Origin: an uncultured Clostridia bacterium
GTDB taxonomy: Bacteria; Bacillota; Clostridia; Christensenellales; Borkfalkiaceae
NCBI GenBank assembly: GCA_947631005.1
Contig: CANRJR010000011.1
Location: 1-58,329, forward strand
DNA: 58,329 nucleotides
Direction: 5' to 3'
The translations under genes were made by a program, and so were the position numbers. Numbering within the stretch: the stretch's first letter is position 1; the number at the start of each line of letters is the position of its first letter. Under the pieces are notes generated by a model. It searched no databases and was not told the DNA's origin. It was given only the letters and a program-made list of their open reading frames with translations. Below, one piece after another: positions 5,268 to 48,362 of this stretch.

Positions 5268-5296
5268 AGTATGGCATTCGCCGCGCTTTTTATGTG
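5268..5296 (-). promoter_or_regulatory. Putative sigma-G promoter of gerA-gerB-gerC
   Basis: On the minus strand CACATA (5291-5296), 17 bases, then CATACTt (5268-5273). This resembles the forespore sigma-G consensus (gcATA / CATAcTA), the expected control of germinant receptors. The ATG lies 6 bases after the -10 box. Confidence 0.55.
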
Positions 5297-14813: not shown

Positions 14814-14841
14814 GGAATTATTATGCGACTTTATAGGTCAA

Positions 14842-24918: not shown

Positions 24919-24978
24919 GAGAATACCATTGTATAAATGGCAAATTCTATCATTTTCAAAAGGGGAGGACAAAGCAAC

Positions 24979-27900
24979 ATGAGAAAGCTGAAGGTTGTGT
25001 TGACCGTACTGCTTGCGCTCACCGTGTCGCTTGCTCTTTTCGCCTGTGGCGGCGGGAAGGACAAAGGCAAGGGTAAGGGGCAGATCGCAGGCGTTACGAT
25101 CGGCAATCAGCTTGCGCTGACGGAGAAGGATACGGCTTCTACGTTGAGCACAAAGAAGGCGACTCTCAAAGTTTCCGTCACGTACACCGACGGGACGACT
25201 GCGGAACTTACCGCGGACGATTGGGAGTTTACCGAGGACAGTCTTAAAAACCTTCAAACGACGGGTGAGGGTGCGAACGCGACGTATGTGATCGGCAATT
25301 ATACGCTCGACGTGCAGCCCACCGCAAACAACGATAAACATCTTGTCGGAACGGCGACGGCTGTGGTCGATCACGATTGGGGCGCGGCGGACGCGAACGG
25401 CGTTCAGACCTGCTCTGTCGAAGGCGCGACCAAGACGGCGACCAAGACGGACGTTACCGTTGAGTTTGCAGGTTATCACGACACGCCGATCGCCGACATC
25501 GTGAAGTATGCGGATACGACGCTCGACGAAAATGCACAGCGCATCAAGGCGTTCGGGCTTACGGGGAGCGGGGCAGATCCGCACACCGCAACGGTCGGCC
25601 GTTTGGAAAAGGGGATGACCATTTCCGTCCGCGGCAAGATGATCGCGACGAGCGATGCGAACACTTACTATTTCCCGATTATCGGTCTTGCGAACCGTCA
25701 GACGGACGCGGGCTTTGTTGTCCGTAACGACGGTTGGGGCATTTACGGCGGTATCGGCGGCGGCGGCGTTCTTGCCAAGAGCGGTCTTTCCGACCATACG
25801 ATCACCGCGGGCACGCCCGCGGCTGACACGCAGGATTGGGAAGCGTACTTCGAAGGCGCAGGTTCTTCGACGACCGATTTCTTGACCGAACAAGACGTTG
25901 AACTCACCTGGCGTTTTGTGGAAAAGACCGACGGCACGACGACGTACAACGTAGTCGAGCTCGGCTTCTTCGATTACACGATCAACCGCAGCTATACGGT
26001 CCGTGTAAAAGTTCCTACCCGTCAGTTCTACGACACCGTTTTGCACGGCGAAATGATCAAGATGAACATCACCGACATCACCGTCATTCAGATGCTCAAC
26101 CTTGAAGACATCGTTTCGGCGAAGCTCAAGACGGGCGCGAAGAGCACCTATCTCGAAAACGAGATGTTCGACTATTCGACGATCGACTTGCAGGCGAAGT
26201 TCCAGCAGGACGCCGCGGGCACGACGAGACCGTTCGAAGTGTTCGACATGTATGCGACGGCAGACGAAACCGTTACGGCGGACACCGTGTGGGATAACCT
26301 CGAGGGCAGAAAGCTCGTCGATACGTACAAGACCTACAAGGCAGTTCTCACCGTCGGCGAAGTCGTCAAAGAGCACGTCTTTACGGCGACCGAACTTCCC
26401 GTTCAGATCAAGAAGAACGCGGTCGACAACGCGAACGCGAACGACGTTGAAGTCGGGAATGTCACGTTCCTTGCCAACCAGCTCGACGTGATCCCCTTCA
26501 CGCAGGGCACGGGCAACACCGCACAGCTCACCCTTACGGGCGCGGCGGCTTCCTTGACGGCGGCACAGAAAGGAGTGCTCAATAACACCGCGAAGAACCA
26601 CTATGCGGCGTTCACGATCTATCAGAACGGTCCTACCAAGTTCAGCACGACGGGTAAGCCCGTTTTCGTGGGGACGGAAGGCTATGCGAAAGTCAATGCC
26701 GACGGTACGGCGGTCGACGTGGTTGTCGCGCTCGATAAGACCGTGATCGGCACGACCAAGACGGTGAAACTCACGGGCGTCAACGATCAGGATATCGTCA
26801 TCGACGTTTCGGGCATCACCGCTTACACCTACTACTCGGCTGTGAACACGGTCGCTCCCGTCTACCTCAACAAGGCAGGTACGGTTGAGATCACGTACAG
26901 CGTTGCCACCAATCCCGCATTGACTGCCACGGCAAACGGAGTGTTTGCTCCCAAAGACGTCCGCCTTACCATCGGCGGTTCGCGCTTCGCACTTTCGAGC
27001 GCGGTCACGGGCAGCGGAGCGACAGCGGCATGGAAGACCGAGCCGACCGCAATCGGCAGAACGGGCGTCTCCGTCGTCGTTGCCAATGAGGGCGGCAAGA
27101 CCAAGATCACCTATACCATCGAAGAAGATATCACCAGCCCGACCGAGTACAGCATTCAGCTCGCCACCAACGAATCCACGGGTTGGACCGTACAGGTTGC
27201 GGATATCGTCTATCCCGAGTTCGCACGCTTTGCAGAAAACGGTGCGGACACGAAAGGCTATGTAACGGACAGCTGGCTTACGTACGTAGAGGGCACCAAG
27301 CTCTATCTCGCGCTTGTGGGTCCCATGGACGATATTCAGACCGAACAAATGAAAGCGGCGTTCTCGCTTACCCTTAACGCGGGCGCAGATACCCCTGCCG
27401 CCAAGCAGACCTATGAGTATTTGCAGGCGCACGATCTTTCCATCGCGGTCCAGCCCGACGGAACGGTTGCGCTCACCAATTCCGCTCTTCTCAATGGTCT
27501 TGCGACCGCCGAGTTGGTTGCATTCGGTACGCTCAACAACAGCAAAGATACCGACCGCGGTATGGTTGTGCTCTTCACGATCGACGTCACCGCGCTCGGC
27601 TACGACAAGACGAGCAACTATGCGTTCAAGCTTCTCGACGACGACACCATCTACACCGTCACCGCTCCTACGGGAGATGCAAAAGAGTATGCGATCGCAC
27701 CGCTCGAAGGCGCGACCGCAGGTGCGGATGAGAACCTCGGCACGGCGACCTGCACCGTACAGGCGATCGTGTACAGCAAAATGACCAAGGGCGAAGACGT
27801 TGTGTATTGGGATATCAAGGGGCTCACCCCGACCGAAGAGCACACGTTCAACTCGGACGGCATTTGCACCAAGTGCCAGTCGCAGAGATTGCAAGTCACC

Positions 27901-29085
27901 ACGACCGACGCCAAGTACGACGTCGTCATGATCCCCGCCGCAACGGCTGTTCCGAACGGCGACCTCTCCGACGTATGGTGGAATAACGGCGAAGGCGGCA
28001 CTGCAACGGGTGCGAAGACGTTCAACGGCGACTTCGCGGTGCAGTACACGTTCAAGAACGAGCGCGATCCCGCTTGGCATCAAGACGTCGTTATCGAGCT
28101 CATCAACAACGGTCGTTACCTCGACCTCAACTATGCGGCGAACAATCCTTGGGGCGCGAACTGGGCAGACGGCAACTTCGGCGAAGGCACGTTGGGTTCG
28201 AACACCATGACCGCCACCAAGAACGGCACGGCGATCGCCGCCGCAGATTTCGCGGCAGAGTTCAACCAGGGCGACGCTGCTCCTGCCGCCGATTGCTGGA
28301 AAGGCGACTACACCCTCAACATCTATCGTCTCGGCGATACCTACACGATTATTCAGAAGATCAAGAATGCCGCGGGCGTTGAGTACGTCGTTACCAACGA
28401 GATCACCATTAAGGCGACCGACGAGCAAGAAGTCAGCGCGGAAACGACCGTGCAGTTTGTCGGGAATCCTTATTGGGTCGACGACATCAAGGTCAGCGTC
28501 GGTACGATTACCAAGACCGTTGCACTTCCCGGAGAATGGGATGCGACCGCCACGGGCGACAAAAAGATTTGGACAGACCGCGTGCAACTTGGCGAAGTCA
28601 TCGGGAATCTGACCTATGGTCATACCATGACAATCGTCGGTGCGATGACGGGGGCTGCGGGAAGATCGGTTTTTCACACCTTTATCTTGGAGTTCAACGA
28701 CGGTGCTGATATCCGTGTAGACAACTGGTGGTGGAGCTTCATCCCTGAAGGCGCAACCACGAACTGCTTTGGCAACTCCGAGTATGGGGCTGTTAATGCT
28801 GGCGTTGCACCTGCTAAACCCAACCAGATCGCTATCCTCACGGCGACCAACCAAGATAATGTTTGGGAGACGTATAACGAACTCATTGTTGACTGCGACT
28901 GGTCTATCAAGGTTTCCTGGACGAAGAGCTCGATCGTCGACGTGACCATCAACCTTACGAAAGGCGAGAAGTTCTTCACGGCGGCTTATAAGTTCACCAT
29001 CGTGAATATGCCTGAAAACGGCTTTGCGATGAACTTGACGGCTGAACTGTGCAAGATCGACTTCCAGAGCGTTACGCTTTCGTAA
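24979..29085 (+). CDS. Very large surface lipoprotein, 1368 residues
   Basis: The lipoprotein signal is MRKLKVVLTVLLALTVSLAL then FAC at about residue 23, followed by a Gly/Lys-rich spacer (GGGKDKGKGKG). The rest looks like a chain of beta-rich extracellular modules. An Ig-like piece (about 35-125) is followed by 'DHDWGAADANGVQTC', a lectin-like region with 'DVTVEFAGYHDTP' and 'GLEKGM..VRGKM'-type strands, then further Thr/Val/Ala-rich beta repeats. A second His/Cys knuckle, HTFNSDGICTKC, lies near residue 955. Two C-terminal modules are rich in Trp and Asn (WWNNGEGG, VDNWWWSF). Carbohydrate binding is a plausible guess, but no family is recognised. The ATG at 24979 follows aggggagga and gives the intact signal peptide. 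It is monocistronic. Confidence 0.85.
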   Translation: MRKLKVVLTVLLALTVSLALFACGGGKDKGKGKGQIAGVTIGNQLALTEKDTASTLSTKKATLKVSVTYTDGTTAELTADDWEFTEDSLKNLQTTGEGANATYVIGNYTLDVQPTANNDKHLVGTATAVVDHDWGAADANGVQTCSVEGATKTATKTDVTVEFAGYHDTPIADIVKYADTTLDENAQRIKAFGLTGSGADPHTATVGRLEKGMTISVRGKMIATSDANTYYFPIIGLANRQTDAGFVVRNDGWGIYGGIGGGGVLAKSGLSDHTITAGTPAADTQDWEAYFEGAGSSTTDFLTEQDVELTWRFVEKTDGTTTYNVVELGFFDYTINRSYTVRVKVPTRQFYDTVLHGEMIKMNITDITVIQMLNLEDIVSAKLKTGAKSTYLENEMFDYSTIDLQAKFQQDAAGTTRPFEVFDMYATADETVTADTVWDNLEGRKLVDTYKTYKAVLTVGEVVKEHVFTATELPVQIKKNAVDNANANDVEVGNVTFLANQLDVIPFTQGTGNTAQLTLTGAAASLTAAQKGVLNNTAKNHYAAFTIYQNGPTKFSTTGKPVFVGTEGYAKVNADGTAVDVVVALDKTVIGTTKTVKLTGVNDQDIVIDVSGITAYTYYSAVNTVAPVYLNKAGTVEITYSVATNPALTATANGVFAPKDVRLTIGGSRFALSSAVTGSGATAAWKTEPTAIGRTGVSVVVANEGGKTKITYTIEEDITSPTEYSIQLATNESTGWTVQVADIVYPEFARFAENGADTKGYVTDSWLTYVEGTKLYLALVGPMDDIQTEQMKAAFSLTLNAGADTPAAKQTYEYLQAHDLSIAVQPDGTVALTNSALLNGLATAELVAFGTLNNSKDTDRGMVVLFTIDVTALGYDKTSNYAFKLLDDDTIYTVTAPTGDAKEYAIAPLEGATAGADENLGTATCTVQAIVYSKMTKGEDVVYWDIKGLTPTEEHTFNSDGICTKCQSQRLQVTTTDAKYDVVMIPAATAVPNGDLSDVWWNNGEGGTATGAKTFNGDFAVQYTFKNERDPAWHQDVVIELINNGRYLDLNYAANNPWGANWADGNFGEGTLGSNTMTATKNGTAIAAADFAAEFNQGDAAPAADCWKGDYTLNIYRLGDTYTIIQKIKNAAGVEYVVTNEITIKATDEQEVSAETTVQFVGNPYWVDDIKVSVGTITKTVALPGEWDATATGDKKIWTDRVQLGEVIGNLTYGHTMTIVGAMTGAAGRSVFHTFILEFNDGADIRVDNWWWSFIPEGATTNCFGNSEYGAVNAGVAPAKPNQIAILTATNQDNVWETYNELIVDCDWSIKVSWTKSSIVDVTINLTKGEKFFTAAYKFTIVNMPENGFAMNLTAELCKIDFQSVTLS

Positions 29086-32209: not shown

Positions 32210-32238
32210 TTGACAATCCGCGTTTTTCATGCTAAACT
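32210..32238 (+). promoter_or_regulatory. Promoter of rplJ-rplL
   Basis: TTGACA (32210-32215), 17-bp spacer, TAAACT (32233-32238). Confidence 0.85.
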
Positions 32239-32242
32239 GAAT

Positions 32243-32342
32243 CCAAAGCCGTAGACAACGGGTGCATTTGCTCAATATCCCGTCGAGGTGTGGAATGTAG
32301 CGAAAGTGTTGCTCCGCGCCGTCTGTGGCGCGGAGCTTTTAT
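32243..32342 (+). promoter_or_regulatory. Ribosomal protein L10 leader
   Basis: Shows the conserved elements of the L10(L12)4-binding leader: 'ccgtagacaacgggtgc', 'cccgtcgaggtgtgga' and a terminal GC hairpin (gctccgcgcc-gtctgt-ggcgcggagc) followed by tttt, ahead of rplJ. Excess L10-L12 complex is expected to bind and reduce expression. Confidence 0.88.
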
Positions 32343-32372
32343 TCGGCGCAGAATGCGCTTACGGAGGTAACT

Positions 32373-33332: not shown

Positions 33333-33361
33333 TTGACGTATCGGGGCGAAACGGGTACAAT
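33333..33361 (+). promoter_or_regulatory. Promoter directly abutting the cyclophilin-like gene (leaderless)
   Basis: TTGACG (33333-33338), 17-bp spacer, TACAAT (33356-33361), then 6 bases and the ATG. Transcription should start at or next to the A of the ATG. Confidence 0.8.
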
Positions 33362-33367
33362 AGAGGT

Positions 33368-34267
33368 ATGAAAAAGTTTTTACGGTTTTTTGCAGTGATC
33401 GGCGCGGCGGTCATCACCGCGGGCGCGCTCTTCATGTTTGCGGGTTGCACCACCAAGCACCCCGAGATCACCATCACCTATACCTTTCACGACAAGGACT
33501 ATAAGGTAGATTATACGCTCTCGCGGAACGATGCGCCGAACACCGTACAGCACTTCATCGAGCTTGCCGACGCAGGCTTCTACGACGGGCTGTGCGTGCA
33601 TAACTACGATTCCAACTTCCTCTATACGGGTGGCTACAAGCTCAATGCGGACAAGGAACTCGAAGAGGTCGACTACTTCACCGTCGTCAAACAGCTCGAA
33701 GAGGAGAAAGGGATCGTGTTTACGCAGTCGGTGTGGACGGCGGACGACGCCCGTACCCCCCTCTACACGGTGTACGGCGAATTTACGGACAACGGCGTCG
33801 CCACGCAGTACAGCCGCGAGAATGCCCACTCGACGGGCGCGCTCGTGATGTATTATACCGATAAGGGCGCGTCGTTCAACGCCGACGTTACCGTCTCCCG
33901 CGCCGACAAGGGCAAGGAGAACGAAAAACAGCCCTATCAAACGGTGAAATATTCCACCAACAGCGCGACCTCGCTGTTCTATACCTACACCTCGCCCGAC
34001 ACCAACTACCTCCGCGGCAATTCCTATTGCGTGTTCGGCATGGCGAAAAACTATGCCGACCAGCTCGAAAACGGACTTCTGAAAGCCATTGAGGACTACT
34101 GCGAGGAATATGTGAAAGACGGCGAGTCGTTCACCGTCGAACGCGTGGAGAAAACCAACCGTTACGAGCCGTTCGAAGAGCTCGCCAAGGGCGACCTCGA
34201 AGAGACGTTCCAAACCCCCGTCGACCAGCCCATCATCATCAAATCCGTCAAAGTGAACAAGTATTGA
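33368..34267 (+). CDS. Cyclophilin-type peptidyl-prolyl isomerase-like lipoprotein
   Basis: A 299-residue lipoprotein (signal helix about 6-24, then FAGC). The mature part carries a cyclophilin-like core: 'RNDAPNTVQHFIELADAGFYDGLCVHNYDSNFLYTGGYK' aligns with the family segment aP.tv.nF..l...gfYdg..fHRv...Fm.qGG (quoted in pieces). The catalytic arginine of the FHR motif is replaced (VHN), so isomerase activity is doubtful. Large insertions and an acidic C-terminal extension account for the extra length. It is probably extracytoplasmic, perhaps a folding factor or scaffold. The mRNA is predicted to be leaderless. Confidence 0.75.
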   Translation: MKKFLRFFAVIGAAVITAGALFMFAGCTTKHPEITITYTFHDKDYKVDYTLSRNDAPNTVQHFIELADAGFYDGLCVHNYDSNFLYTGGYKLNADKELEEVDYFTVVKQLEEEKGIVFTQSVWTADDARTPLYTVYGEFTDNGVATQYSRENAHSTGALVMYYTDKGASFNADVTVSRADKGKENEKQPYQTVKYSTNSATSLFYTYTSPDTNYLRGNSYCVFGMAKNYADQLENGLLKAIEDYCEEYVKDGESFTVERVEKTNRYEPFEELAKGDLEETFQTPVDQPIIIKSVKVNKY

Positions 34268-34316
34268 TCAAGACCGAAGTTGAGATTGAATTTGAGACTG
34301 AATTTGAGAAAAACCG

Positions 34317-34350
34317 CCGAGCCCCTGCACCGAGAAAGTGTAGGGGCTCG
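34317..34350 (+). terminator. Hairpin after the cyclophilin-like gene
   Basis: gagcccctgcac / gtgtaggggctc around cgagaaa, 50 bases after the stop. No T-run. Sister of the hairpin at 441-471. Confidence 0.45.
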
Positions 34351-34431
34351 TGCTGTTCTCATGCAGTTTTATCATTGTTTCCATTCCGCTGTCATTTGAC
34401 TTACTTTTTTTGCCATTCGACCTACTTTTTT

Positions 34432-34545
34432 TGTCATTTCGACCGAAGCGAGTAAACGAGCGAAGCGGAGAAATCCCCTTGGTCGTTGATGAGGCTTGGA
34501 ATATAATAAGGGAGATTTCTCGACTACGCTCGAAATGACATATTG
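34432..34545 (+). repeat. R2 repeat, complete
   Basis: 'gtcatttcgaccgaagcgag' ... 'gagaaatccccttggtcgtt' ... 'gggagatttctcgactacgc' ... 'gaaatgac', the same layout as 535-643 and 5503-5632. Confidence 0.8.
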
Positions 34546-34565
34546 GGAACACCGCTTCGCTTCTA

Positions 34566-34700
34566 AAATGTCATGTTGAGCGGAGGCGTAGCCGTAGTCG
34601 AAACATCTCCCGCTCGTCGCGACGCGACGGGTTTTGTAAGCCGTCCCCACACGGGAACGGCTTACTTTTTCCGTCGGTCGCTCCTTTTCACGAAGAGGGG
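34566..34700 (+). repeat. R2 repeat, gtcatgttgagc variant with hairpin
   Basis: Starts 'aatgtcatgttgagcggag', then 'cgaaacatctcccgctcgtc', a hairpin (aagccgt..ccccacac..acggctt) and 'gtcggtcgctccttttcacg'. The last part also occurs at about 38225. Confidence 0.7.
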
Positions 34701-34703
34701 CGG

Positions 34704-35582
34704 TTATTCCACGGGGGTGATGTTCGAGATCTTCCCGTCCGTCGTTTCGACGACAAAATAGCGCACCTCGTAGACCCGTTCGCGTTCGCGGTACACGAGC
34801 CCGACGACGGCAGGGTCGGGCGTGACGACGACGGAGAGGAAATCGCCGAGAAATTCTTTGAGCGCGCCCGCCTTTTCTTGCAGCGCGGGGGAGAGAAAGG
34901 GGGCGCAGTCCGCGCCGATGAGCGCGCTCTCAAACAGGGCGACGGCAAACGTCGCCTCGGTGGGTTCGCCCGCGGCGCGCAGGGTACACGCTTTCAGCAC
35001 GCCGCCCTCCCACGTGCAGAGCGCGGTATGGCGGCGGCAGTCTTTGAGGGGGACTTCGGCGACGAGGCGCGCCCCCCGTTCCATCACATGCCCGTCCGAC
35101 TGCAACACGATGCGCCCCTCCCCGTCGGCGAGGCAAAAGCAGTCGTCGCCCTCGATCAGCAAAAACTCTCCCGCCTCGTGCAGGGCGGCGTTCTCGAATG
35201 CGTCGGGGAGAATTTCTTCACGCGACGTTGAACCGTTTTCGGAGATCAGCCGCACGCGTCCCTGTACGCAGAGGGTGTACGTCGTTCCGCCGACGTTGCG
35301 CCGCGCGACGACGCGGAGAGACTGGTCGATTCTCTGAAATCCCGAGAGGTACACGGCGACGCCCGTACGGGTGAAGTAGAGTTTCGCTTCGGGCGGCGGG
35401 GCAAAGAGGAAAGTTTCGTCGAAGCGAAACCGCAGGGTATGAAAGCGTTCGGGCTTGCATTCGCAGAGAACGCCGTCCGCGGGGTCGAGTTCGACTGAGC
35501 GTTCGAAACCGTCGATGTTGCCGAGGAGAAGTCCGTTCACGAAGAGCGCGCAGGGCTTTTCGGATAAAAAAAATACTCGCAT
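34704..35582 (-). CDS. Hypothetical protein, 292 residues, probable sporulation-time expression
   Basis: Family not recognised. The protein is soluble, with no signal peptide or membrane helix. The N-terminal half (about 1-130) looks beta-rich ('ALFVNGLLLGNIDGFERSVEL', 'YLSGFQRIDQSLRVVARR'), the middle repeats short strands ('LLIEGDDCFCLADGEGRIVLQSDG'), and the C-terminal ~70 residues form a helix followed by strands ('VVGLVYRERERVYEVRYFVV'). No Shine-Dalgarno precedes the ATG; a CATACAAT box lies 6 bases upstream with an ATAA element at sigma-E spacing. That hints at mother-cell expression, but this is inference from one promoter. It is divergent from the Myb-like gene. Confidence 0.7.
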   Translation of the reverse strand: MRVFFLSEKPCALFVNGLLLGNIDGFERSVELDPADGVLCECKPERFHTLRFRFDETFLFAPPPEAKLYFTRTGVAVYLSGFQRIDQSLRVVARRNVGGTTYTLCVQGRVRLISENGSTSREEILPDAFENAALHEAGEFLLIEGDDCFCLADGEGRIVLQSDGHVMERGARLVAEVPLKDCRRHTALCTWEGGVLKACTLRAAGEPTEATFAVALFESALIGADCAPFLSPALQEKAGALKEFLGDFLSVVVTPDPAVVGLVYRERERVYEVRYFVVETTDGKISNITPVE

Positions 35583-35588
35583 CGTGCT

Positions 35589-35610
35589 ATTGTATGTATA
35601 TCTTCCAAGA
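35589..35610 (-). promoter_or_regulatory. Putative sigma-E -10 box for the 292-residue protein
   Basis: On the minus strand CATACAAT (35589-35596), preceded 15 bases upstream by acataa. A TTGACA also occurs but at 20 bases from the -10, too far for a good sigma-A promoter. The start codon is 6 bases downstream. Confidence 0.45.
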
Positions 35611-35641
35611 GTTATGTCAACAATGGGTGCGAGGTGGTATC

Positions 35642-36202
35642 ATGAATAAAATCAACGGCTACACAGAAGAGGAAGCGATCGGGTTGATCGAGTACATTTA
35701 CAGCGGCAGAAACGAGGGAAAGACGCTCTCCTATCTCTTCGAAACGTACGGGAAAGAGCATTCGCGCGCCAAGGGAAGCGTACGCAACTACTACTACGCC
35801 TTCCTCAAAAAGCGGGACGATTCGCGCGTGCAAGCCATTCTCGACGGCAAGGATCTCCGCGCGGGCGAGATCAAGCCGTTCACCGAAGAGGAGACCGAAG
35901 AACTCATCGACAAGGTGTTCGAAGGCAAAAAGCGCGGGCTTTCCGTCCGCCGCGCCATCCTCGAAGCGTCGGAGGGGGACGAAAAGCGCATGCTCCGCAT
36001 GCAGAATAAGTACCGCAACCTGCTCAAAAAGCAGCCCGAACGCATGGAAAAGGCGGCGCAGGAGGCGGGCGTCGGCAACCTCTTCCTCCAAAAGCGGCTG
36101 GAAAAGGAGATCGACGCGCTCTACCGCCGCATCGCGGAAGATCTCAAACAGGAGAACGAGGCACTCAAACGGGAAATCGAGGCGTTGAAAAAGGGAGAAT
36201 GA
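35642..36202 (+). CDS. Protein with two Myb/SANT-like repeats and a coiled coil
   Basis: A 186-residue protein. Two ~50-residue segments share the plan '(Y/F)TEEE...LI(E/D).(I/V)..G+..G......(Y/L)....K': residues about 7-58 and 79-130, each ending in 'NYYYAFLKK' or 'NKYRNLLKK'. This resembles tandem Myb/SANT-like DNA-binding helices such as those of RsfA-type regulators in spore formers. The C-terminus (about 150-186) is a coiled coil (KRLEKEIDALYRRIAEDLKQ...) likely to dimerise. Probably a transcription or nucleoid regulator; identification is moderate. The ATG follows gcgaggtgg. Confidence 0.65.
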   Translation: MNKINGYTEEEAIGLIEYIYSGRNEGKTLSYLFETYGKEHSRAKGSVRNYYYAFLKKRDDSRVQAILDGKDLRAGEIKPFTEEETEELIDKVFEGKKRGLSVRRAILEASEGDEKRMLRMQNKYRNLLKKQPERMEKAAQEAGVGNLFLQKRLEKEIDALYRRIAEDLKQENEALKREIEALKKGE

Positions 36203-36279
36203 TCTCCCAATTTTCCCCTCAAAGGAAGAGGAATAGTCGGCGCATATCTTCACAAACTGTGAAAGGACAGGAGGAAGAT

Positions 36280-36468
36280 ATGGAAAAGATGTTTTGTCTC
36301 GGCGTGTTGCTCGGCGCAGTCGGCGGCGCGCTCCTCGTCGCCAACAGCTACAAGGCGAGATCGCTCGTCAAAAAAAGCCAGGCGGAAGTCATGCAGAAAG
36401 TAGACGAAATGATGGACGAACGCCTGAAAACGGACGGCGAAGAGAAGTCCGAGAAAAAGAAGAAGTAA
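36280..36468 (+). CDS. Small YtxH-like membrane protein, 62 residues
   Basis: One N-terminal helix with small residues (CLGVLLGAVGGALLVANSY), followed by a charged, lysine-rich helical tail ending in KKKK. This is the layout of YtxH-like stress or envelope proteins, too short for a firm family call. RBS aggagga. A terminator overlaps the stop codon. Confidence 0.6.
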   Translation: MEKMFCLGVLLGAVGGALLVANSYKARSLVKKSQAEVMQKVDEMMDERLKTDGEEKSEKKKK

Positions 36469-36497
36469 AAAAACGCGGGGCGACCCGCGTTTTTTTG
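36467..36497 (+). terminator. Terminator after the small membrane protein
   Basis: aaacgcggg-gcga-cccgcgttt followed by tttt. Confidence 0.9.
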
Positions 36498-36515
36498 CGG
36501 CAGTTGCGCGAACGC

Positions 36516-36544
36516 TTTACTTTTCCCGCGCAATGTGCTATACT
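36516..36544 (+). promoter_or_regulatory. Promoter directly abutting ruvX (leaderless)
   Basis: TTTACT (36516-36521), 17-bp spacer, TATACT (36539-36544), then tttttc and the ATG. There is no Shine-Dalgarno site. Confidence 0.75.
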
Positions 36545-36550
36545 TTTTTC

Positions 36551-37303
36551 ATGATCGTGGCGTTCGACATCGGAGACAAACGCATCGGCGTGGCATACAG
36601 CGACCCCGCCGAGAGCTATGCCATTCCGTCCGAAACCTATTTCCGTACGGGTAAATTTTCGGACGACGTGGCGGCGGTCGCGAAGATCGCGCGGGAGGCG
36701 GGTGCGCAGAGCATCGTCTGCGGTCTGCCCCTCTATGAGGACGGCGGCGAAAGTCCGCAGTCGGAAAAGACGCGCGCGTTTGCCGCCACGCTCGAACGGG
36801 CGGCGGGGATCCCCGTCACACTCTCCGACGAGCGGAACACCACCCGCGCGGCGCGCGGCGATCTCATCGCCATGGGGAAGAGCGTCCGCGGCGACAAAAA
36901 GAAAAAACGCGTCGATTCGCTCGCCGCGGCTTATATTTTGGAAGGCTATCTCGAAGAAAGGAGGCAACACATGAAGGAAGTCGGCAACCAATACGACGAC
37001 GACAACGTCGTCGAGCTCATCGACGAGGAGGGCAAGACCTACCGCTATGAGCACATCCTCACCTTTGCGTACAAGGGCGAGTGGTATTGCGCGCTCGCGC
37101 CCGAGGGCGCGGAGGAGGGCGACGAGGACGAGGGGGACGAAGTTGCGATCTATCACCTCGTCGGCGGGGAGGACGACGAACAGCTCGAAACCATCGAGGA
37201 CGAGACGCTTCTCGACGAGGTTTTCGCCGAGTTCTGCAATCAATATGAGGATTTCGAGGACGCCGACGAGGCGGAACGTCTCGATTCCGACGACGAAGAG
37301 TAG
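36551..37303 (+). CDS. ruvX: RuvX/YqgF nuclease fused to a DUF1292 domain
   Basis: A 250-residue protein. Residues 1-140 are a complete YqgF/RuvX domain: MIVAFDIGDKRIGVAYSD (catalytic Asp), 'SIVCGLPLYEDGGES', 'VTLSDERNTT' and 'KKKKRVDSLAAAYILEGYL'. RuvX is implicated in 16S rRNA 5' maturation and Holliday-junction-like cleavage. Residues 141-250 form a DUF1292 (YrzB-like) acidic domain ('VELIDEEGKTYRYEHILTFAYKGEWYCAL', 'AIYHLVGGEDDEQLETIEDE'), normally a separate downstream gene. A perfect aaaggagg (36957-36964) sits 6 bases before the in-frame ATG at 36971, so a free 110-residue DUF1292 protein may also be made. Confidence 0.9.
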   Translation: MIVAFDIGDKRIGVAYSDPAESYAIPSETYFRTGKFSDDVAAVAKIAREAGAQSIVCGLPLYEDGGESPQSEKTRAFAATLERAAGIPVTLSDERNTTRAARGDLIAMGKSVRGDKKKKRVDSLAAAYILEGYLEERRQHMKEVGNQYDDDNVVELIDEEGKTYRYEHILTFAYKGEWYCALAPEGAEEGDEDEGDEVAIYHLVGGEDDEQLETIEDETLLDEVFAEFCNQYEDFEDADEAERLDSDDEE

Positions 37304-37307
37304 AGCG

Positions 37308-37898
37308 GTGATCAATTACGACGCGCGTTTGCAGGAGATCATGGCGCAGGAGGCGGGCAAACGCGTCCTGTTGCACAGTTGCTGCGCCCCCTGTTCGAGC
37401 TATTGTCTCGAAACGCTCGCACGGGCGTTTTCCGTCACCGTGTTCTATTATAATCCCAATCTCGACAGCGAGGAAGAGTATCTTCACCGCAAGCGCGAAC
37501 AGCTTCGCTTTCTCGCGGAAACGGGGCTCGCCGACGCGCTCGACTGCGACTACTCGCACGAAGATTTCGAGGGGGTCGCAAGGGGATTCGAGAACGAGAG
37601 AGAGGGCGGGGCGCGCTGTGCGCGCTGTTTTCGCCTGCGGCTGAACGCCACGGCGCGGGCGGCGAAAGAGCATGGGTACGACTTTTTCGCCACGACGCTC
37701 ACCGTCTCCCCGCTCAAAAACGCCGCGCTCATCAACGAGATCGGCTTCGAGGTCGCAAAGGAGGAGGGGATCGCCTACCTGCCCGCGGACTTCAAAAAGC
37801 GGGGCGGGTATCAAAGGAGCATCGAGCTTTCGCGGGAGCACGGACTGTACCGCCAGAATTATTGCGGCTGCGTCTATTCCAAAAGGGAATCCCGTTGA
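37308..37898 (+). CDS. queH: Epoxyqueuosine reductase QueH
   Basis: Last enzyme of queuosine synthesis, reducing epoxyqueuosine in tRNA. This is the QueH (DUF208) type, which uses an iron-sulfur cluster and differs from QueG. The 196-residue protein shows LLHSCCAPCSSYCLETLA, VFYYNPNL, 'CARCFRLRL' and 'YRQNYCGCVYS', all with the expected cysteines. The start is GTG at 37308, four bases after the ruvX stop. The queuosine partners queA and tgt are also in this window. Confidence 0.93.
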   Translation: MINYDARLQEIMAQEAGKRVLLHSCCAPCSSYCLETLARAFSVTVFYYNPNLDSEEEYLHRKREQLRFLAETGLADALDCDYSHEDFEGVARGFENEREGGARCARCFRLRLNATARAAKEHGYDFFATTLTVSPLKNAALINEIGFEVAKEEGIAYLPADFKKRGGYQRSIELSREHGLYRQNYCGCVYSKRESR

Positions 37899-37987
37899 GC
37901 GATGCGGTTTGAAAGAGAATGCCGCGAAACGGGAATATCAAATACGGTAAAACGGAACGTTAAATTTTCGGAACGGGAAATTTTGAA

Positions 37988-38030
37988 CAAGCCGTCCGTC
38001 GGAAAAACCGACGGACGGCTTGTCGGTTTT
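37988..38030 (+). terminator. Terminator after queH
   Basis: Perfect 15-bp stem caagccgtccgtcgg / ccgacggacggcttg around aaaaa, followed by tcggtttt. About 90 bases after the stop. Confidence 0.75.
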
Positions 38031-38094
38031 ATTCCTTGCTTACCCGCAAGGATTTTTCGCAAAAGACCTTGCTTCGCAATCTTTTTTGCGATGG

Positions 38095-38290
38095 AATAAG
38101 GAATGGCATTATTGGAAGCGAAGTGGCGTTCTAAATTGTCATTTCGAGCGTAGTCGAGAAATCTCCCTTTCGTCGCGACGCGACGCGTTTTGTAAGCCTC
38201 CCCTAATGGGAAGGCTTACCTTGTACGTCGGTCGCTCCTCTTCGCGAAAAAATACTTCGTCTTTTTTCGCGATGGAATAAGGAATGGCAT
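38095..38290 (+). repeat. R2-type composite repeat (inverse of the 638-1080 copies)
   Basis: 'ggaatggcattattggaagcg' and 'gtcatttcgagcgtagtcgag', then 'cgacgcgttttgtaagcc', a small hairpin, 'gtcggtcgctcctcttcgcg' and the hairpin cgcgaaaaaa ... ttttttcgcg. It matches the 638-860 element in reverse orientation. Confidence 0.75.
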
Positions 38291-38510
38291 ATTGGAAGCA
38301 AAGCGGCGTTCTAAATTGTCATTTCGAGCGTAGTCGAGAAATCTCCCTTATTCTTAATTATAAGCCTATTCAACGACCAAAGGGATTTCTCGATTCCGCT
38401 TCGCTACACTCGAAATGACAACGGAGCATAAACAATAAGAATAAGGGAGATGTTTCGACACGAGAGCCCGCGTCTTTTCGACGCGGGCTCTCGGCTCAAC
38501 ATGACACTTT
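38291..38510 (+). repeat. Further R2 repeats in tandem
   Basis: A second 'gtcatttcgagcgtagtcgag' near 38318, the inverted end 'ggatttctcgattccgcttc...cgaaatgac' to about 38420, and a gtcatgttgagc-variant end with an internal hairpin (gagagcccgcgtc / gacgcgggctctc) at about 38460-38493. Confidence 0.7.
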
Positions 38511-38538
38511 TGTAACGCCCTTATGCTTCCCAAATCAC

Positions 38539-38700
38539 GGCGCGAGGGAAACCACGCTTTTCCGCTGCGCGCCCCAATTTGCCGCACACTTGCGGCTTAT
38601 TGTCAGAGATAGCGATTTTGAGGACGGGCTCTAATTTAAGAGAAAGTTTGTTTCTATCACGAAATTTTGTTTTGGCGAAGCACAAAACAAAATTTGTGAA
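38539..38700 (+). repeat. R1 dispersed structured repeat, copy 5
   Basis: Starts ggcgcgagggaaaccacgc and ends aaaatttgtgaa, 7 bases before the phospholipase-like stop codon on the other strand. The body is more diverged (ttgtcagagatagcgatttt) but both hairpins are kept. Confidence 0.85.
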
Positions 38701-38707
38701 TCCCCTC

Positions 38708-39565
38708 TTATATCTCTTTTCCCGTCAGCATATGCCGCGAGAAAGGGGAGCGGGGGAGGGGGTCGCCGCCGAGGACGCAGGCGTAAAAGATCTCGATGCG
38801 TTCCGCGCTTTCGCGGGCGGCGAGGCGGAAGAGCGCGTCGGCGTCCTCGCCGCGGTTTTCCGACAGTTCGGCGAAGCGGTCGCCGCCGAGCACGCCGTCG
38901 AGGGGGGTCTCATGGGGGAAGAACGACGAAAGTCCGTAGATGCGGAACAGCCGATCGAAGCGTTGCCAGCCCTTTCCCTTGCCGCGGTGGAAGTAGTTCA
39001 AATAGAGGCGGAAGTTGCGCATCATGGCGTGGAAGGCGCGTTTGGTGATGGGGCGGCGGTGCAGAGCCTCGGCGGCGTCGCGCAGGTAGGCAAAGAGAAT
39101 GCCGTCGCGGTCGATCTTTTTGAGGTCGAACGGGAAGGCGTACTTCCACACCGAACCGTTTTTGAGCTTGCGCAGAAAGTAGACGTCCCAATCGTTCTCC
39201 ATGATTTGGTGGACGCGGCGGGGAGAATTATTCTCGCGGAGATAGTTATAGACGAACGGGTGAAACGCCACGTCCGCGGAGAGGTGCGAGCAAAATCCGA
39301 GCGCGTAGGCGAGGCACTTGTCCCGCGCGTCGCCCGTGCGCGTTTTGAGGGCGTCTTTGAGCGCGGAAAACCATTCGTACACGCTTCCGCGGTGCAAGGT
39401 CTTTCCGAGGTTATATTCCTTTTTATTGAGGGGGCGCAAAAAGAAAAAGAGGTCGGGTCCCTGCGCGCCGAGGTAGTAGTAGTCGGGGGCGGCGTCGACC
39501 GCCGCGCGCGCATCCCCGAGCGGGGCTTCCCGTGCAATGAGTTCGTGCGTGATGCTGGAAGGCAT
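38708..39565 (-). CDS. Zinc-dependent phospholipase C-like protein
   Basis: A 285-residue protein resembling the PF00882 (zinc-dependent phospholipase C) family. It has 'MPSSITHELIARE', where the early His sits just after the start, 'DYYYLGAQGPDLFFFLRP', and 'YALGFCSHLSADVAFHPFVYNYL' with the His/Asp/His zinc ligands. It lacks a signal peptide, so it is probably intracellular, and the substrate is unknown. Members of this subgroup are common in Clostridia. The ATG follows ggagga. Confidence 0.8.
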   Translation of the reverse strand: MPSSITHELIAREAPLGDARAAVDAAPDYYYLGAQGPDLFFFLRPLNKKEYNLGKTLHRGSVYEWFSALKDALKTRTGDARDKCLAYALGFCSHLSADVAFHPFVYNYLRENNSPRRVHQIMENDWDVYFLRKLKNGSVWKYAFPFDLKKIDRDGILFAYLRDAAEALHRRPITKRAFHAMMRNFRLYLNYFHRGKGKGWQRFDRLFRIYGLSSFFPHETPLDGVLGGDRFAELSENRGEDADALFRLAARESAERIEIFYACVLGGDPLPRSPFSRHMLTGKEI

Positions 39566-39620
39566 AGTTCCTCCGATGTCCGTTGGTCATAGTATGCGGA
39601 GATCCGCAAAAAAGTTTCCG

Positions 39621-40274
39621 TCAGCGCGCGCCGAACAGCGACGTTCCGAGGCGGACCATGTTCGACCCGCAACGCACGCACAGCCGCCAATCGCCGCTCA
39701 TGCCCATGGAGAGATAGCGGATGGCGGGGTCGCTCTTTTTGGCTTGGTCGTACAGCGCGCGCATCTCCTTGGCGAGGGGGATGAGTTCGGACTCTTCCCC
39801 GATGGGGAGCATCGCCATAAACCCGCGCGGGCGCAGCTTTGTCCCTTTGAGGGCGGCGAGCGCGTCGAGCCCCTTTTCGAGGGGATATCCCCCCTTGGAG
39901 AGCTCGCACCCGATGTTGATCTGGATGAGGACGTCCTGCGGCGCGGTCAGCTTGGCGTCGAGCGCGTCGATGAGTTCGTCGCGGTCGACGGAGTGGATGA
40001 GGTCGCACTTGCCCAAGAGATATTTGATCTTGTTCGTCTGCAAATGTCCGATGAAATGTTTCTCCGCGCCGTGGATCAGACCGTATTTGTCGCGAAATTC
40101 CTGCACCTTGTTCTCGCCGACCGCGGTGACGCCCGCCGCGATCGCGCGGGAGATCTCCTCGGGCGTGCGGGTCTTGGTCGCGGCGACGAGCAGAACGGGC
40201 TCGCCGAAGCAGTTGCCCGCGGAAAGTTCGCGAAGCGTCGCCTTCACCGCGCTTTCAATGTCGAAATTGTCCAT
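39621..40274 (-). CDS. yggS: YggS/PLPBP-family pyridoxal-phosphate homeostasis protein
   Basis: A 217-residue PLP-binding TIM-barrel protein. The PLP lysine lies in VLLVAATKTRTPEEI, followed by 'AVGENKVQEFRDKY', 'HFIGHLQTNKIKYLL', 'IHSVDRDEL', 'QINIG', and 'YLSMGMSGDW' near the phosphate site. 'VRLGTSLFGAR' is the usual C-terminus. It has no catalytic role of its own and buffers the cell's PLP supply. Often found near cell-division genes (sepF/ylmE); here it follows an unrecognised membrane protein gene with an 8-base gap. Confidence 0.93.
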   Translation of the reverse strand: MDNFDIESAVKATLRELSAGNCFGEPVLLVAATKTRTPEEISRAIAAGVTAVGENKVQEFRDKYGLIHGAEKHFIGHLQTNKIKYLLGKCDLIHSVDRDELIDALDAKLTAPQDVLIQINIGCELSKGGYPLEKGLDALAALKGTKLRPRGFMAMLPIGEESELIPLAKEMRALYDQAKKSDPAIRYLSMGMSGDWRLCVRCGSNMVRLGTSLFGAR

Positions 40275-40282
40275 ATTCCACC

Positions 40283-40801
40283 TCAATAGAAGAGAAAGGT
40301 GTTTTTGACGAGGAATTCTTTGAGCGCGCGGTTCGACCCGAGCGCGGCGTGGATGACCGCCGACGTCGCGACCGTCTTTCCCCGCAGCGCGCCGAGCTGT
40401 TCGGCGGTGAGGGAGAGCTGTCCGAGGCAGGCGTCGCCGAGCTCTTCCATAGCGTCGCCGTCCTCCCGTTCCGCCGCTTTGAGCAGTTCGTAATACTTTT
40501 CGGGTTCGCCAGCGGGATACACGTCGACGGTGTACCGCTTTTTGCCGTGCCGCAGAATGTAGAGGTCGCAAAACAGCGGCTCGCGGGCGATGCGGAAAGC
40601 AAGCGTCTTTTCGCCCCGCCAACCCGTCTTGCGGTTGACGATCAGCATGTAGAGGAACATGAACGAAAACACCGCGAAAAAGCCGATGGCGACGAAGAGG
40701 AAGATCTTTTCGTCGAACACGTTCCACAGCGTCATACAGACCGCGATGGCGACGGTGACGGCGGCGAAGAGGATATAGAGGATCTTTTTGCCCGTTGTCA
40801 T
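40283..40801 (-). CDS. Hypothetical membrane protein, 172 residues
   Basis: Two N-terminal helices (about residues 6-26 and 33-56) are followed by a soluble domain of about 110 residues with 'TLAFRIAREPLFCDLYILRHGKKRYTVDVYPAGEP' and a helical C-terminus. I do not recognise the family. It lies between argH (13-base gap, RBS gggagg) and yggS, probably in one transcription unit argH-this-yggS. Nothing in the sequence indicates a role. Confidence 0.75.
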   Translation of the reverse strand: MTTGKKILYILFAAVTVAIAVCMTLWNVFDEKIFLFVAIGFFAVFSFMFLYMLIVNRKTGWRGEKTLAFRIAREPLFCDLYILRHGKKRYTVDVYPAGEPEKYYELLKAAEREDGDAMEELGDACLGQLSLTAEQLGALRGKTVATSAVIHAALGSNRALKEFLVKNTFLFY

Positions 40802-40814
40802 AAACAGCCTCCCG

Positions 40815-42185
40815 TTATTGTTTGAGCCGCGCGCGTATGGACGCGATCCCGTCTTGCGCCGCCTTGCGCGACGACCCGCCCACCGAATTCCGCGCCTCGG
40901 CAGAGGCGCGCGGCTTCACCGCTTCGAGCACGTCCTTTCCGAACGCGGGGTGCACGGCGAGAAATTCGTCGAGCGTGAGCGCGGGGAGCGTCTTTCCCGT
41001 CTCGATGCAGTAGCGGACGAGCTTGCCCGTCGCGGCGTGGGCGTCGCGGAACGGAACGCCGCGCTTTGCGAGATAGTCCGCAACGTCGGTCGCCGTCGAA
41101 AATCCCTCGCCCGCAGCGCGTTCCATGGCGTCGGGGCGGAGTTTGAGCTTCTGCAACAGCTTGTTGTAGATGGAGAGGCAGGAAAAGAGGGTCGCCTCCG
41201 CGTCGAAGAAAGGCTCTTTGTCCTCCTGTAAATCTTTGTTGTAGGCGAGGGGAAGCCCTTTGAGGGTGGTGAGAATGCCCATGAGATGCCCGTACACCCG
41301 CCCCGTCTTGCCGCGGACGAGCTCGGGAAGGTCGGGATTTTTCTTTTGCGGCATGATCGACGAGCCCGTGGAGTATTCGTCGGGGATCTCGAAATAGCCG
41401 AATTCGTCGGAGGTATAGAGGATGGTGTCCTCGCACAGCCGCGAGAGATGGGTCATCGCGAGGGAGGCACAGAAGAGATATTCGGCGACGAAATCCCGAT
41501 CGGAGACCGCGTCGAGCGCGTTTTGCGAAACGGCTTCGAAGCCGAGCAGGGCGGCGGTGCGCGCACGGTCGATGGGATAGGACGTGCCCGCGAGAGCCGC
41601 GCTTCCGAGCGGACATACGTTCATGCGGACGCGCAGATCGCGGAAGCGGGCGATATCGCGCAGGAACATCTCCGAATAGGCGTTGAAATATTGGGCGCAG
41701 TTGATGGGTTGCGCCTTGCGCAGGTGGGTGAACCCGGGCAGGATGTACCCGAGTCCCTCTTCGGCGCGGTCGCAGAGCGTGCCGATGAGCGCGCAGAGGA
41801 GCGCGTCGGCTTTGTTGACGCTTTGGCGCACATACAGCCGCATGTCGGTGGCGACCTGATCGTTGCGGGAGCGGGCGGTGTGAAGCCGCTTGCCCGCGTC
41901 GCCGATCCGCCGCGTGAGCTCGCCCTCCACAAAGGAATGCACGTCCTCCGCCCCCCCGATGGGGAGTTTGCCCGTATTGACGTCGTCCAGAATTTCGCCG
42001 AGCCCGCCGAGGATGGCGTCGACGTCCTTTTGTTGCAGCACGCCGCATTCGCCGAGCATGGCGGCGTGCGCGCACGAAGCCTGAATGTCGACGGCGATGA
42101 GTTTTTGATCGAACGATAGCGATTCGTTGAAGGCGTCGGCGTCGCCGTCGAGCGCGCGGTCGAATCTTCCCTGCCAAAGTTTCAT
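40815..42185 (-). CDS. argH: Argininosuccinate lyase
   Basis: Splits argininosuccinate into arginine and fumarate, the last step of arginine synthesis. It has 456 residues, normal for the family. Features are 'LWQGRFDRALDGDADAFNESLSFDQKL' at the start, 'HTARSRNDQVATDMRLY', 'THLRKAQPI', and the fumarate-lyase signature GSSIMPQKKNPD with its catalytic Ser. No argG is in the window, so the arginine pathway is dispersed. The RBS is gaggtcg; a TATGAT box lies about 35 bases upstream. Confidence 0.97.
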   Translation of the reverse strand: MKLWQGRFDRALDGDADAFNESLSFDQKLIAVDIQASCAHAAMLGECGVLQQKDVDAILGGLGEILDDVNTGKLPIGGAEDVHSFVEGELTRRIGDAGKRLHTARSRNDQVATDMRLYVRQSVNKADALLCALIGTLCDRAEEGLGYILPGFTHLRKAQPINCAQYFNAYSEMFLRDIARFRDLRVRMNVCPLGSAALAGTSYPIDRARTAALLGFEAVSQNALDAVSDRDFVAEYLFCASLAMTHLSRLCEDTILYTSDEFGYFEIPDEYSTGSSIMPQKKNPDLPELVRGKTGRVYGHLMGILTTLKGLPLAYNKDLQEDKEPFFDAEATLFSCLSIYNKLLQKLKLRPDAMERAAGEGFSTATDVADYLAKRGVPFRDAHAATGKLVRYCIETGKTLPALTLDEFLAVHPAFGKDVLEAVKPRASAEARNSVGGSSRKAAQDGIASIRARLKQ

Positions 42186-42292
42186 GGCGACCTCACAGAA
42201 TGGTTTCCTATATCATACACCGTTTTCGCGAAAATAGCAAGCGGACGGGGGGCGGCTTTTCCCGAAAAATTCGCAAACGCGAACACATTTGT

Positions 42293-42321
42293 TTGACATT
42301 TTCGGCGGATTCCGTTACAAT
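42293..42321 (+). promoter_or_regulatory. Promoter directly abutting ruvC (leaderless)
   Basis: TTGACA (42293-42298), 17-bp spacer, TACAAT (42316-42321), six bases (aaccgt), then ATG. No Shine-Dalgarno site. Confidence 0.85.
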
Positions 42322-42327
42322 AACCGT

Positions 42328-42825
42328 ATGGTCATTTTGGGGCTCGACCCCGGCTACGGCACGATGGGATACGGGGTCGTCGAGAAGGACGCGCGGGGGA
42401 ACTGCGCCGCCGTCGACTACGGCGTCGTAAAAACGCCCGCGAGCGAAAATTTCGCCGTGCGGCTGTGCATGCTCGAAGAAGGGGTCAACGCGCTCTTCGA
42501 CAAGTTTCATCCCGAAGAGGCGGCGATGGAGGAGCTCTTCTTCTCCAAAAACATCACGACGGGCATCGCCGTGGCGCATGCGCGCGGCGTGATGCTCCTC
42601 ACCTGCAACAAGCGTTGCGGGCGCATCTTCGAATACACGCCCAACGAGATCAAGCAGGCTCTCACGGGGTACGGCAAGGCGGACAAGGGACAGATGCAAC
42701 GGGTGGTCGCGTCCCATTTGCGCCTCAACGCGCCGCCCCGTCCCGACGACGCCGCCGACGCGCTCGCCGTCGCGCTCTGCCATGCCTTTACCAACAGATT
42801 CGCGGGGCTGTTCTCCCTGCGGTAA
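42328..42825 (+). CDS. ruvC: Holliday junction resolvase RuvC
   Basis: A 165-residue endonuclease of the RNase H fold that cuts Holliday junctions after RuvAB branch migration. Acidic catalytic residues are visible in 'ILGLDPGYGTMGYG', 'AAMEELFFSKN' and 'PDDAADALAVALCHA'. It is the first gene of ruvC-ruvA-ruvB-queA, with a predicted leaderless mRNA. Confidence 0.95.
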   Translation: MVILGLDPGYGTMGYGVVEKDARGNCAAVDYGVVKTPASENFAVRLCMLEEGVNALFDKFHPEEAAMEELFFSKNITTGIAVAHARGVMLLTCNKRCGRIFEYTPNEIKQALTGYGKADKGQMQRVVASHLRLNAPPRPDDAADALAVALCHAFTNRFAGLFSLR

Positions 42826-48146: not shown

Positions 48147-48302
48147 ATGATCAAGACCGTAGCGAAACCCATGGAAAAGAAAGTAACGGGATGCGGCGAG
48201 TGCAGAAGCACCTGCCAATCCGCTTGCAAAACGAGTTGCACGGTGGGAAACCAATCCTGCGAGCGCGTGACGAGAGAACAGAAGATCGACGATCGGAAAT
48301 AA
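48147..48302 (+). CDS. scfA: SCIFF (six-cysteine) ranthipeptide precursor
   Basis: A 51-residue peptide with six cysteines in the SCIFF pattern: CGECRSTCQSACKTSCT, then GNQSCE. The 'CQSACKTSCTV.NQSC' core is almost invariant in Clostridia. It is processed by the adjacent radical SAM enzyme, which forms thioether (sulfur to beta/gamma carbon) cross-links between Cys and nearby Thr/Asn-type residues. The product's role is thought to involve cell-cell communication or metabolism control but is unsettled. RBS aggaga. A terminator separates it from the maturase. Confidence 0.96.
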   Translation: MIKTVAKPMEKKVTGCGECRSTCQSACKTSCTVGNQSCERVTREQKIDDRK

Positions 48303-48316
48303 TCATAGGCAAAGCT

Positions 48317-48344
48317 CGGGAGCGGCGAGAACGCCGCTCCTTTT
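48317..48344 (+). terminator. Attenuating terminator between SCIFF and its maturase
   Basis: ggagcggcg-agaa-cgccgctcc followed by tttt. It allows more precursor transcript than maturase transcript from the scfA promoter. Confidence 0.85.
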
Positions 48345-48362
48345 GACGTTTACAATATCGTT

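Follow-up and report, generated by a model that had tools for sequence, protein, structure and literature searches.

Three genes on a 58,329-nt contig from an uncultured Clostridia bacterium of the family Borkfalkiaceae (assembly GCA_947631005.1, contig CANRJR010000011.1; the whole of this stretch is referred to below as the window) are each preceded by a complete promoter, with the end of its -10 box exactly 6 nt from the ATG and no Shine–Dalgarno (SD) sequence ahead of the start. They encode a cyclophilin-like protein, RuvX and RuvC. Considered alongside their counterparts in the rest of the genome and in related genomes, these elements are very probably the promoters of leaderless mRNAs, and the arrangement would be inherited as a trait by one group of families within a single order of the Clostridia, existing beside a dominant SD-led mode of initiation. 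A sequence-only reading of the window had described the three promoters, and its description is borne out for each, as follows.

33333..33361, plus strand: promoter of the cyclophilin-like gene, TTGACG (33333-33338), 17 nt, TACAAT (33356-33361)
33368..34267, plus strand: cyclophilin-like gene (Pfam PF00160), ATG at 33368, 6 nt past the -10 box, T at position -1
36516..36544, plus strand: promoter of ruvX, TTTACT (36516-36521), 17 nt, TATACT (36539-36544)
36551..37303, plus strand: ruvX (RuvX plus DUF1292 by Pfam), ATG at 36551, 6 nt past the -10 box, C at position -1
42293..42321, plus strand: promoter of ruvC, TTGACA (42293-42298), 17 nt, TACAAT (42316-42321)
42328..42825, plus strand: ruvC (Pfam PF02075), ATG at 42328, 6 nt past the -10 box, T at position -1

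Matches to the anti-SD complement within the SD region amount to 4 nt for the cyclophilin-like gene and 3 nt each for ruvX and ruvC, with the GGAGG core untouched. The same reading had found good SD sites before most other genes of the window, and indeed 37 of the 51 called genes display a match of at least 5 nt.

The spacing was then assessed in 36 stretches, comprising 776,768 bases including the window, or 38.8 % of the 2.0-Mb assembly. A home-made codon-usage caller, blind to upstream signals, delivered 604 genes; d denotes the number of nucleotides between the end of the -10 box and the start codon, a box is allowed at most one mismatch to TATAAT, and the background is taken from d of 0–4 and 9–14. 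Candidate ATG starts possess 28 boxes at d=6 (Poisson P = 4e-23) and seven at d=7, the background being 1.91 at each distance. When a -35 element with at most two mismatches is added, 23 and four are retained, respectively, against 0.82. In a hold-out of 245 genes, fetched after analysis of the first sample, ten boxes occur at d=6 and between zero and two at every other distance from 0 to 14. Patterns applied without gene calls behave similarly: TTG-N20-TANNAT-Nd-ATG occurs 25 times at d=6 as against 1–8 times elsewhere in d 0–20, or 23 times against 0–5 if a 60-codon open frame must follow, and TTGACA-17-TATAAT-Nd-ATG with two mismatches is found 67 times at d=6 and 29–56 times at other distances. 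With three mismatches the excess at d=6 disappears (130 versus 96–132). A reversed-pattern control (164 versus 12) was discarded as evidence, because it tolerates mismatches within the ATG itself; what it demonstrates is chiefly the presence of promoters. The scan for -10/ATG spacing at gene starts, suggested by the sequence-only reading, is thus strongly positive on the sampled part of the genome, and the chance-level frequency that it had named as a counter-indication is not what is seen.

Coincidence, or an AT-rich composition ahead of ATG codons, would fit the loosest of these searches, in which TANNNT alone occurs 112 times at d=6 and 60–104 times at other distances, the weaker cases of the sequence-only reading being of the same kind. 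Against it stand a peak only one or two bases wide, the recurrence of that peak in the hold-out, and the flat counts from comparison genomes presented below; we therefore assign it a negligible probability, and as an account of the whole class chance is refuted.

The 35 genes with a box at d=6 or 7 share further properties. Each is preceded by a divergent gap or by a gap of at least 40 nt; together they make up 35 of 337 such possible unit heads, with none among 222 close genes or 45 genes at stretch edges. At d=6 there are 28 ATG, one GTG and no TTG starts, compared with GTG or TTG in 35 of 217 SD-led starts. GTG leaderless starts are common in mycobacteria; here, in contrast, they are nearly absent, yet they reappear as candidates at ruvC in some relatives (see below). 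The base at -1 is a pyrimidine in 33 of the 35, and where a -35 element is required the proportion is 26/27, versus 143/217 for SD-led starts (P = 6e-4). A pyrimidine preceding a purine start is the usual context of transcription initiation. An SD match of at least 5 nt is seen in two of the 35 and in 392 of the 569 other genes, the latter being scored as the best of several candidate starts with matches outside the GGAGG core also counted. Thirty of the 35 reside outside the window and were scanned against Pfam, with four lacking any family. The remainder includes UvrC, a UvrD/PcrA helicase, an HhH-GPD glycosylase, a PIF1/RecD-like helicase, shikimate kinase, EPSP synthase, a GHMP kinase and an aminotransferase, as well as Obg, TsaE, GidB, PrmA, a PP-loop ATPase and a MarR-like regulator.

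These properties also bear on where the transcripts would begin. Transcription might start a few bases away from the A, leaving leaders of 1–5 nt or removing part of the AUG, such that the mRNAs would be near-leaderless. The seven of 35 genes at d=7 are in keeping with this, as are boxes at 8–9 nt in some relatives (Anaerocaecibacter muris and, by reading, loci L117, L118, L121 and L122), but the mode lies at 6 nt and the pyrimidine at -1 is close to universal in the class. A distance of 6 nt past the -10 box is the usual one for a bacterial transcription start. We regard near-leaderless transcripts as quite improbable.

Conservation was followed at ruvC and ruvX. The same-genus set for ruvC comprises 25 rows (15 including our own, plus 10), representing 24 distinct sequences, and in 21 of these the -10 box is situated exactly 6 nt before the start. 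All 21 possess TTGACA within one mismatch, at a spacer of 17 nt in 13 and 18 nt in eight; the distance between -35 and -10 thus varies, although that between -10 and ATG is constant. The three exceptions (L076, L098 and L099) have lost the leaderless-type box and display a GGAGG-type SD instead, which to judge from the upstream regions is a switch of initiation mode at a single gene. This bears on the possibility that the promoters are real and yield some leaderless transcripts, whilst the mRNA that is mainly translated starts upstream and carries a leader, as reported for candidates in Clostridium phytofermentans. That all three sequences without the box have an SD, and that 33 of the 35 genes in the sampled genome fall below a 5-nt match, both speak against such leaders, and we consider this explanation unlikely, albeit less so than near-leaderless transcripts. 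In the relatives L112, L115 and L119, ruvC starts with GTG, and a -10 box lies 6 nt ahead of it together with a consensus -35, making leaderless GUG starts possible there. For ruvX, the complete architecture is retained in same-genus loci L100 and L101; by reading, the other five loci include weaker boxes at 6 nt (L126 and L135), two that look SD-led (L125 and L146) and one unclear case (L094). The RuvX of the window additionally has a C-terminal DUF1292 domain (PF06949; gene at 36551-37303). The fetched loci contained no relative of the cyclophilin-like gene or of the 292-aa gene discussed further below.

With regard to distribution beyond the genus, whole genomes were compared by a count S of TTGA-N19-TANNAT-N6-ATG and a count C of the same pattern with N8–13 (six distances), C/6 being the expectation. 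The genome of the window displays an S of 22 versus 6.7. Amongst 200 genomes of its order, which we take to be Christensenellales in the GTDB, S is in excess of C/6 (P<0.01) for 15 of 33 families, including that of the cultured A. muris, and the ratio lies at 2.8–7 for nine of these; families f4, f13, f21, f23, f31 and others of the order show no excess. Across 158 genomes of the phylum outside the order (three of the same class), S totals 623 against 650 expected, with an excess of at least 7 in two. In genomes of f49 and f75 from this phylum survey, similar TTGAC...TA(A/G)CATtataaaATG matches recur in several genomes, and they may reflect one conserved promoter-start arrangement in other families.

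Twenty-six named records were compared in the same way (S/expected). An excess is displayed by Anaerocaecibacter muris (32 versus 6.0) and Candidatus Ornithoclostridium excrementipullorum (15 versus 2.5), and by the Clostridia metagenome-assembled genomes (MAGs) of L093 (17/3.2), L095 (15/4), L104 (9/3.2), L107 (20/3.7), L114 (10/1.8), L126 (21/6.8), L132 (12/3.2), L133 (20/4.3), L135 (20/7.5), L140 (23/4.8), L141 (13/5.7), L155 (13/5.5), L165 (6/2) and L168 (16/2.5). No excess is present in the Clostridia MAGs of L131 (5/4.3), L134 (4/3.8), L139 (1/4) and L145 (0/5), and there is no clear excess in the cultured Clostridia Peptostreptococcus anaerobius (11/7.8), Romboutsia weinsteinii (12/13.8), Anaerosolibacter carboniphilus (16/19.5), Lutispora thermophila (7/13.2), Ruminiclostridium papyrosolvens (14/11.5) and Anaeromonas frigoriresistens (10/11.2). 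The trait is hence that of a set of families in one order and not of Clostridia at large, and it extends far past the window.

A. muris, which NCBI places in the Pumilibacteraceae, was sampled over 400 kb on a regular grid. Its record (G376) has counts and a bS21 position identical to those of G217 in family f32; the two were taken as one genome, which puts A. muris within the order of the window. An open-frame scan finds ten matches at d=6 and at most four at any other distance, and the base at -1 is a pyrimidine in 11 of 12 matches at d=6 or 7. The same scan over 400 kb each of G049, from the null family f31, and of R. papyrosolvens returns zero matches at both distances.

Several observations weigh against the leaderless interpretation. 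In A. muris, three of the 12 pattern matches at d=6 or 7 have an SD match of at least 5 nt, and the caller-based count is weak: with a -35 element required there are five at d=6 against 0.82, and two, four and four at d=7, 8 and 9, respectively, whilst the caller-based pyrimidine frequency at -1 (5/7) resembles that of SD-led starts. Of 23 loci with 60–72 % RuvC identity, only five have the ruvC box at 6 nt, three of these with a GTG start; two more have it at 5 or 7 nt, and 15 lack both a box and an SD match of 5 nt; the pooled loci (380 kb) yield no peak, there being three boxes at each of d=6, 7, 8 and 9. Retention of the ruvC spacing across the whole family is accordingly not borne out. 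More distantly, 47 loci below 60 % identity harbour a box at 6 nt in five and an SD match of at least 5 nt in 25, and when pooled produce a small peak of eight at d=6, with up to seven elsewhere. Moreover, the 35 genes at d=6 or 7 include two weak cases of the sequence-only reading, the SCIFF maturase and the 292-aa gene. Lastly, four of the 35 have an in-frame start with an SD match of at least 5 nt within 60 nt downstream, which is what would be expected were the ATGs misplaced and the true starts SD-led and further on. The sequence-only reading had named such starts, if conserved, as grounds for rejection, and starts of this type do occur in these four; in the other 31 there are none, the candidates were chosen without upstream signals, and the alignment of RuvC in relatives runs from residue 1. 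Misplaced starts consequently have hardly any likelihood as a general explanation.

The claim that these genes yield leaderless mRNAs, atypical for Clostridia, is thereby supported by the spacing peak, the pyrimidine at -1, the near-exclusive ATG, the lack of an SD and the position at unit heads. Its reach would be limited to certain families of one order and, by the counts above, to about 6 % of genes or about 10 % of possible unit heads; because the class is this small, SD-led initiation is still dominant. As we envisage it, polymerase with the housekeeping sigma factor would bind a conventional promoter with -35 and -10 elements, in which 6 nt, or less often 7 nt, separate the -10 box from the ATG, and the first transcribed base would be the A of that ATG. 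We infer this start site because of the spacing peak, the pyrimidine at -1, the missing SD, the unit-head position and the conservation within the genus. The mRNA would then begin with 5'-AUG and, by analogy with known leaderless initiation, ribosomes already holding initiator tRNA would recognise the 5'-terminal AUG.

The evolutionary origin of the trait was considered on a maximum-likelihood tree of RelA/SpoT with 29 rows (30 genomes were sought, G061 being without a match) from 26 of the 33 families, in which many forks lack resolution, f28 forms a long branch and the bootstrap is not settled. One branch (support 100/99) nearly separates the families with and without the signal, setting f2, f4, f5, f11, f13, f17, f21, f23, f31 and f33, along with two outgroups of the same class, apart from the strong-signal families. 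The exceptions are f11, which has a weak excess and lies on the null side, and f9 and f20, with one genome each and no excess, on the signal side. The tree calls for four changes of the trait with all rows and for two without four single-genome families. Whilst the number of changes alone cannot tell gain from loss, gain is more likely because the background of the phylum is flat. It is conceivable, though rather doubtful, that one branch of the order acquired, a single time, a leaderless programme beside SD-led initiation, that this sets housekeeping genes (those for biosynthesis, DNA repair and the upkeep of ribosomes, tRNA and rRNA) apart as an expression class of their own, and that some change in the initiation machinery enabled it; leaderless translation would then have arisen naturally within a group dominated by SD-led initiation. 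Absence of bS21 has been linked with leaderless use. Here, bS21 (PF01165 over the cut-off) is encoded in 32 of 33 genomes with and without the signal and missing from G038 only, so its loss was rejected as the enabling change. An intact 16S rRNA tail was not found in the assembly of the window, which holds three one-mismatch matches; due to the abundance of SD matches, the anti-SD is nonetheless evidently in use.

Comparison with described systems indicates that the mechanism itself is known. In Zheng et al. 2011 (PMC3160421), a TAtaaT-type box about 12 bp before the start codon, measured from its first T, is treated as the promoter of a leaderless mRNA, and leaderless genes are given for 56 of 209 Firmicutes genomes at a mean of 4.2 %, mostly Lactobacillales and Mycoplasma. 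The placement of the box is the same here, in a Clostridia lineage instead; the text of that paper has no word beginning 'clostridi'. It lists mean shares of 19.2 % for Actinobacteria and 39.4 % for Deinococcus-Thermus, which have the same inferred start arrangement beside SD-led genes, as compared with roughly 6 % in our case. Amongst mapped clostridia, published maps of transcription start sites (TSSs) contain few leaderless candidates. These reports cite 2–3 % of transcripts in solventogenic clostridia (PMC9045289), 15 genes in Clostridioides difficile (PMC7438776), and 4 % of intergenic sense TSSs in C. phytofermentans, with the ribosome-binding site kept (PMC5171806), unlike 33 of the 35 genes described herein; the six cultured Clostridia scanned above are other species. 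A StartLink paper (PMC9581028) puts the share of bacterial species with leaderless transcription, as predicted by GeneMarkS-2, at 21.6 %, and the clade is not named in the available parts of PMC10783764 or PMC5397173. As far as our literature searches show, the lineage, the near-clean boundary and the cultured member are new; the GeneMarkS-2 species lists (PMC6028130) lay outside that search and may already class relatives as leaderless. Were leaderless mRNAs indeed acquired as a trait within the SD-using Clostridia, comparing families that have them with families that do not could address what leaderless translation needs of the ribosome or initiation factors, a question that is experimentally accessible because A. 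muris is in culture. There is a practical side as well, since starts of this kind may be called wrongly by gene finders that look for an SD.

The sequence-only reading had put forward four further genes of the window, for which the 6-nt distance is indeed present, with promoters too weak to count.

35589..35594, minus strand: TACAAT 6 nt before the ATG (35582) of the 292-aa gene; weak, with TTGACA 20 nt from the -10 box and G at position -1
48351..48356, plus strand: TACAAT 6 nt before the ATG (48363) of the SCIFF maturase; not accepted, having no -35 element and no conservation
5268..5273, minus strand: CATACT 6 nt before the ATG (5261) of gerA; not accepted, no -35 element at spacers of 16–18 nt
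14820..14825, minus strand: CATAAT 6 nt before the ATG (14813) of the XRE gene; not accepted, no -35 element at spacers of 16–18 nt

For the last three, any -35 at spacers of 16–18 nt has at least four mismatches. As a class, weak boxes are not over-represented at d=6 in the sampled genome (two TANNNT boxes beyond one mismatch and two CATAAT-like ones), which is the reason for not counting gerA and the XRE gene. The SCIFF maturase was rejected as a leaderless case, as none of eight same-genus relatives has a TANNNT box at 5–8 nt before its start.

Elsewhere in the window, an Rfam scan returned a 5S rRNA at 1-102, truncated at its 5' end, and a leader for ribosomal protein L10 at 32231-32351, and nothing else. 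For a 1382-codon open frame at 24937-29085, with its called gene starting at 24997, Pfam gave no match at an E-value of 0.001. Upstream of the maturase, the region 48147-48365 contains a gene for a SCIFF-like cysteine-rich peptide (ATG at 48147, with AGGAG ahead); between it and the SD-less ATG of the maturase stands a terminator-like hairpin. Several relatives, L116, L097 and L095 among them, have a similar hairpin ahead of the maturase, and this recurrence, together with the hairpin itself, suggests attenuation between the peptide and the maturase.

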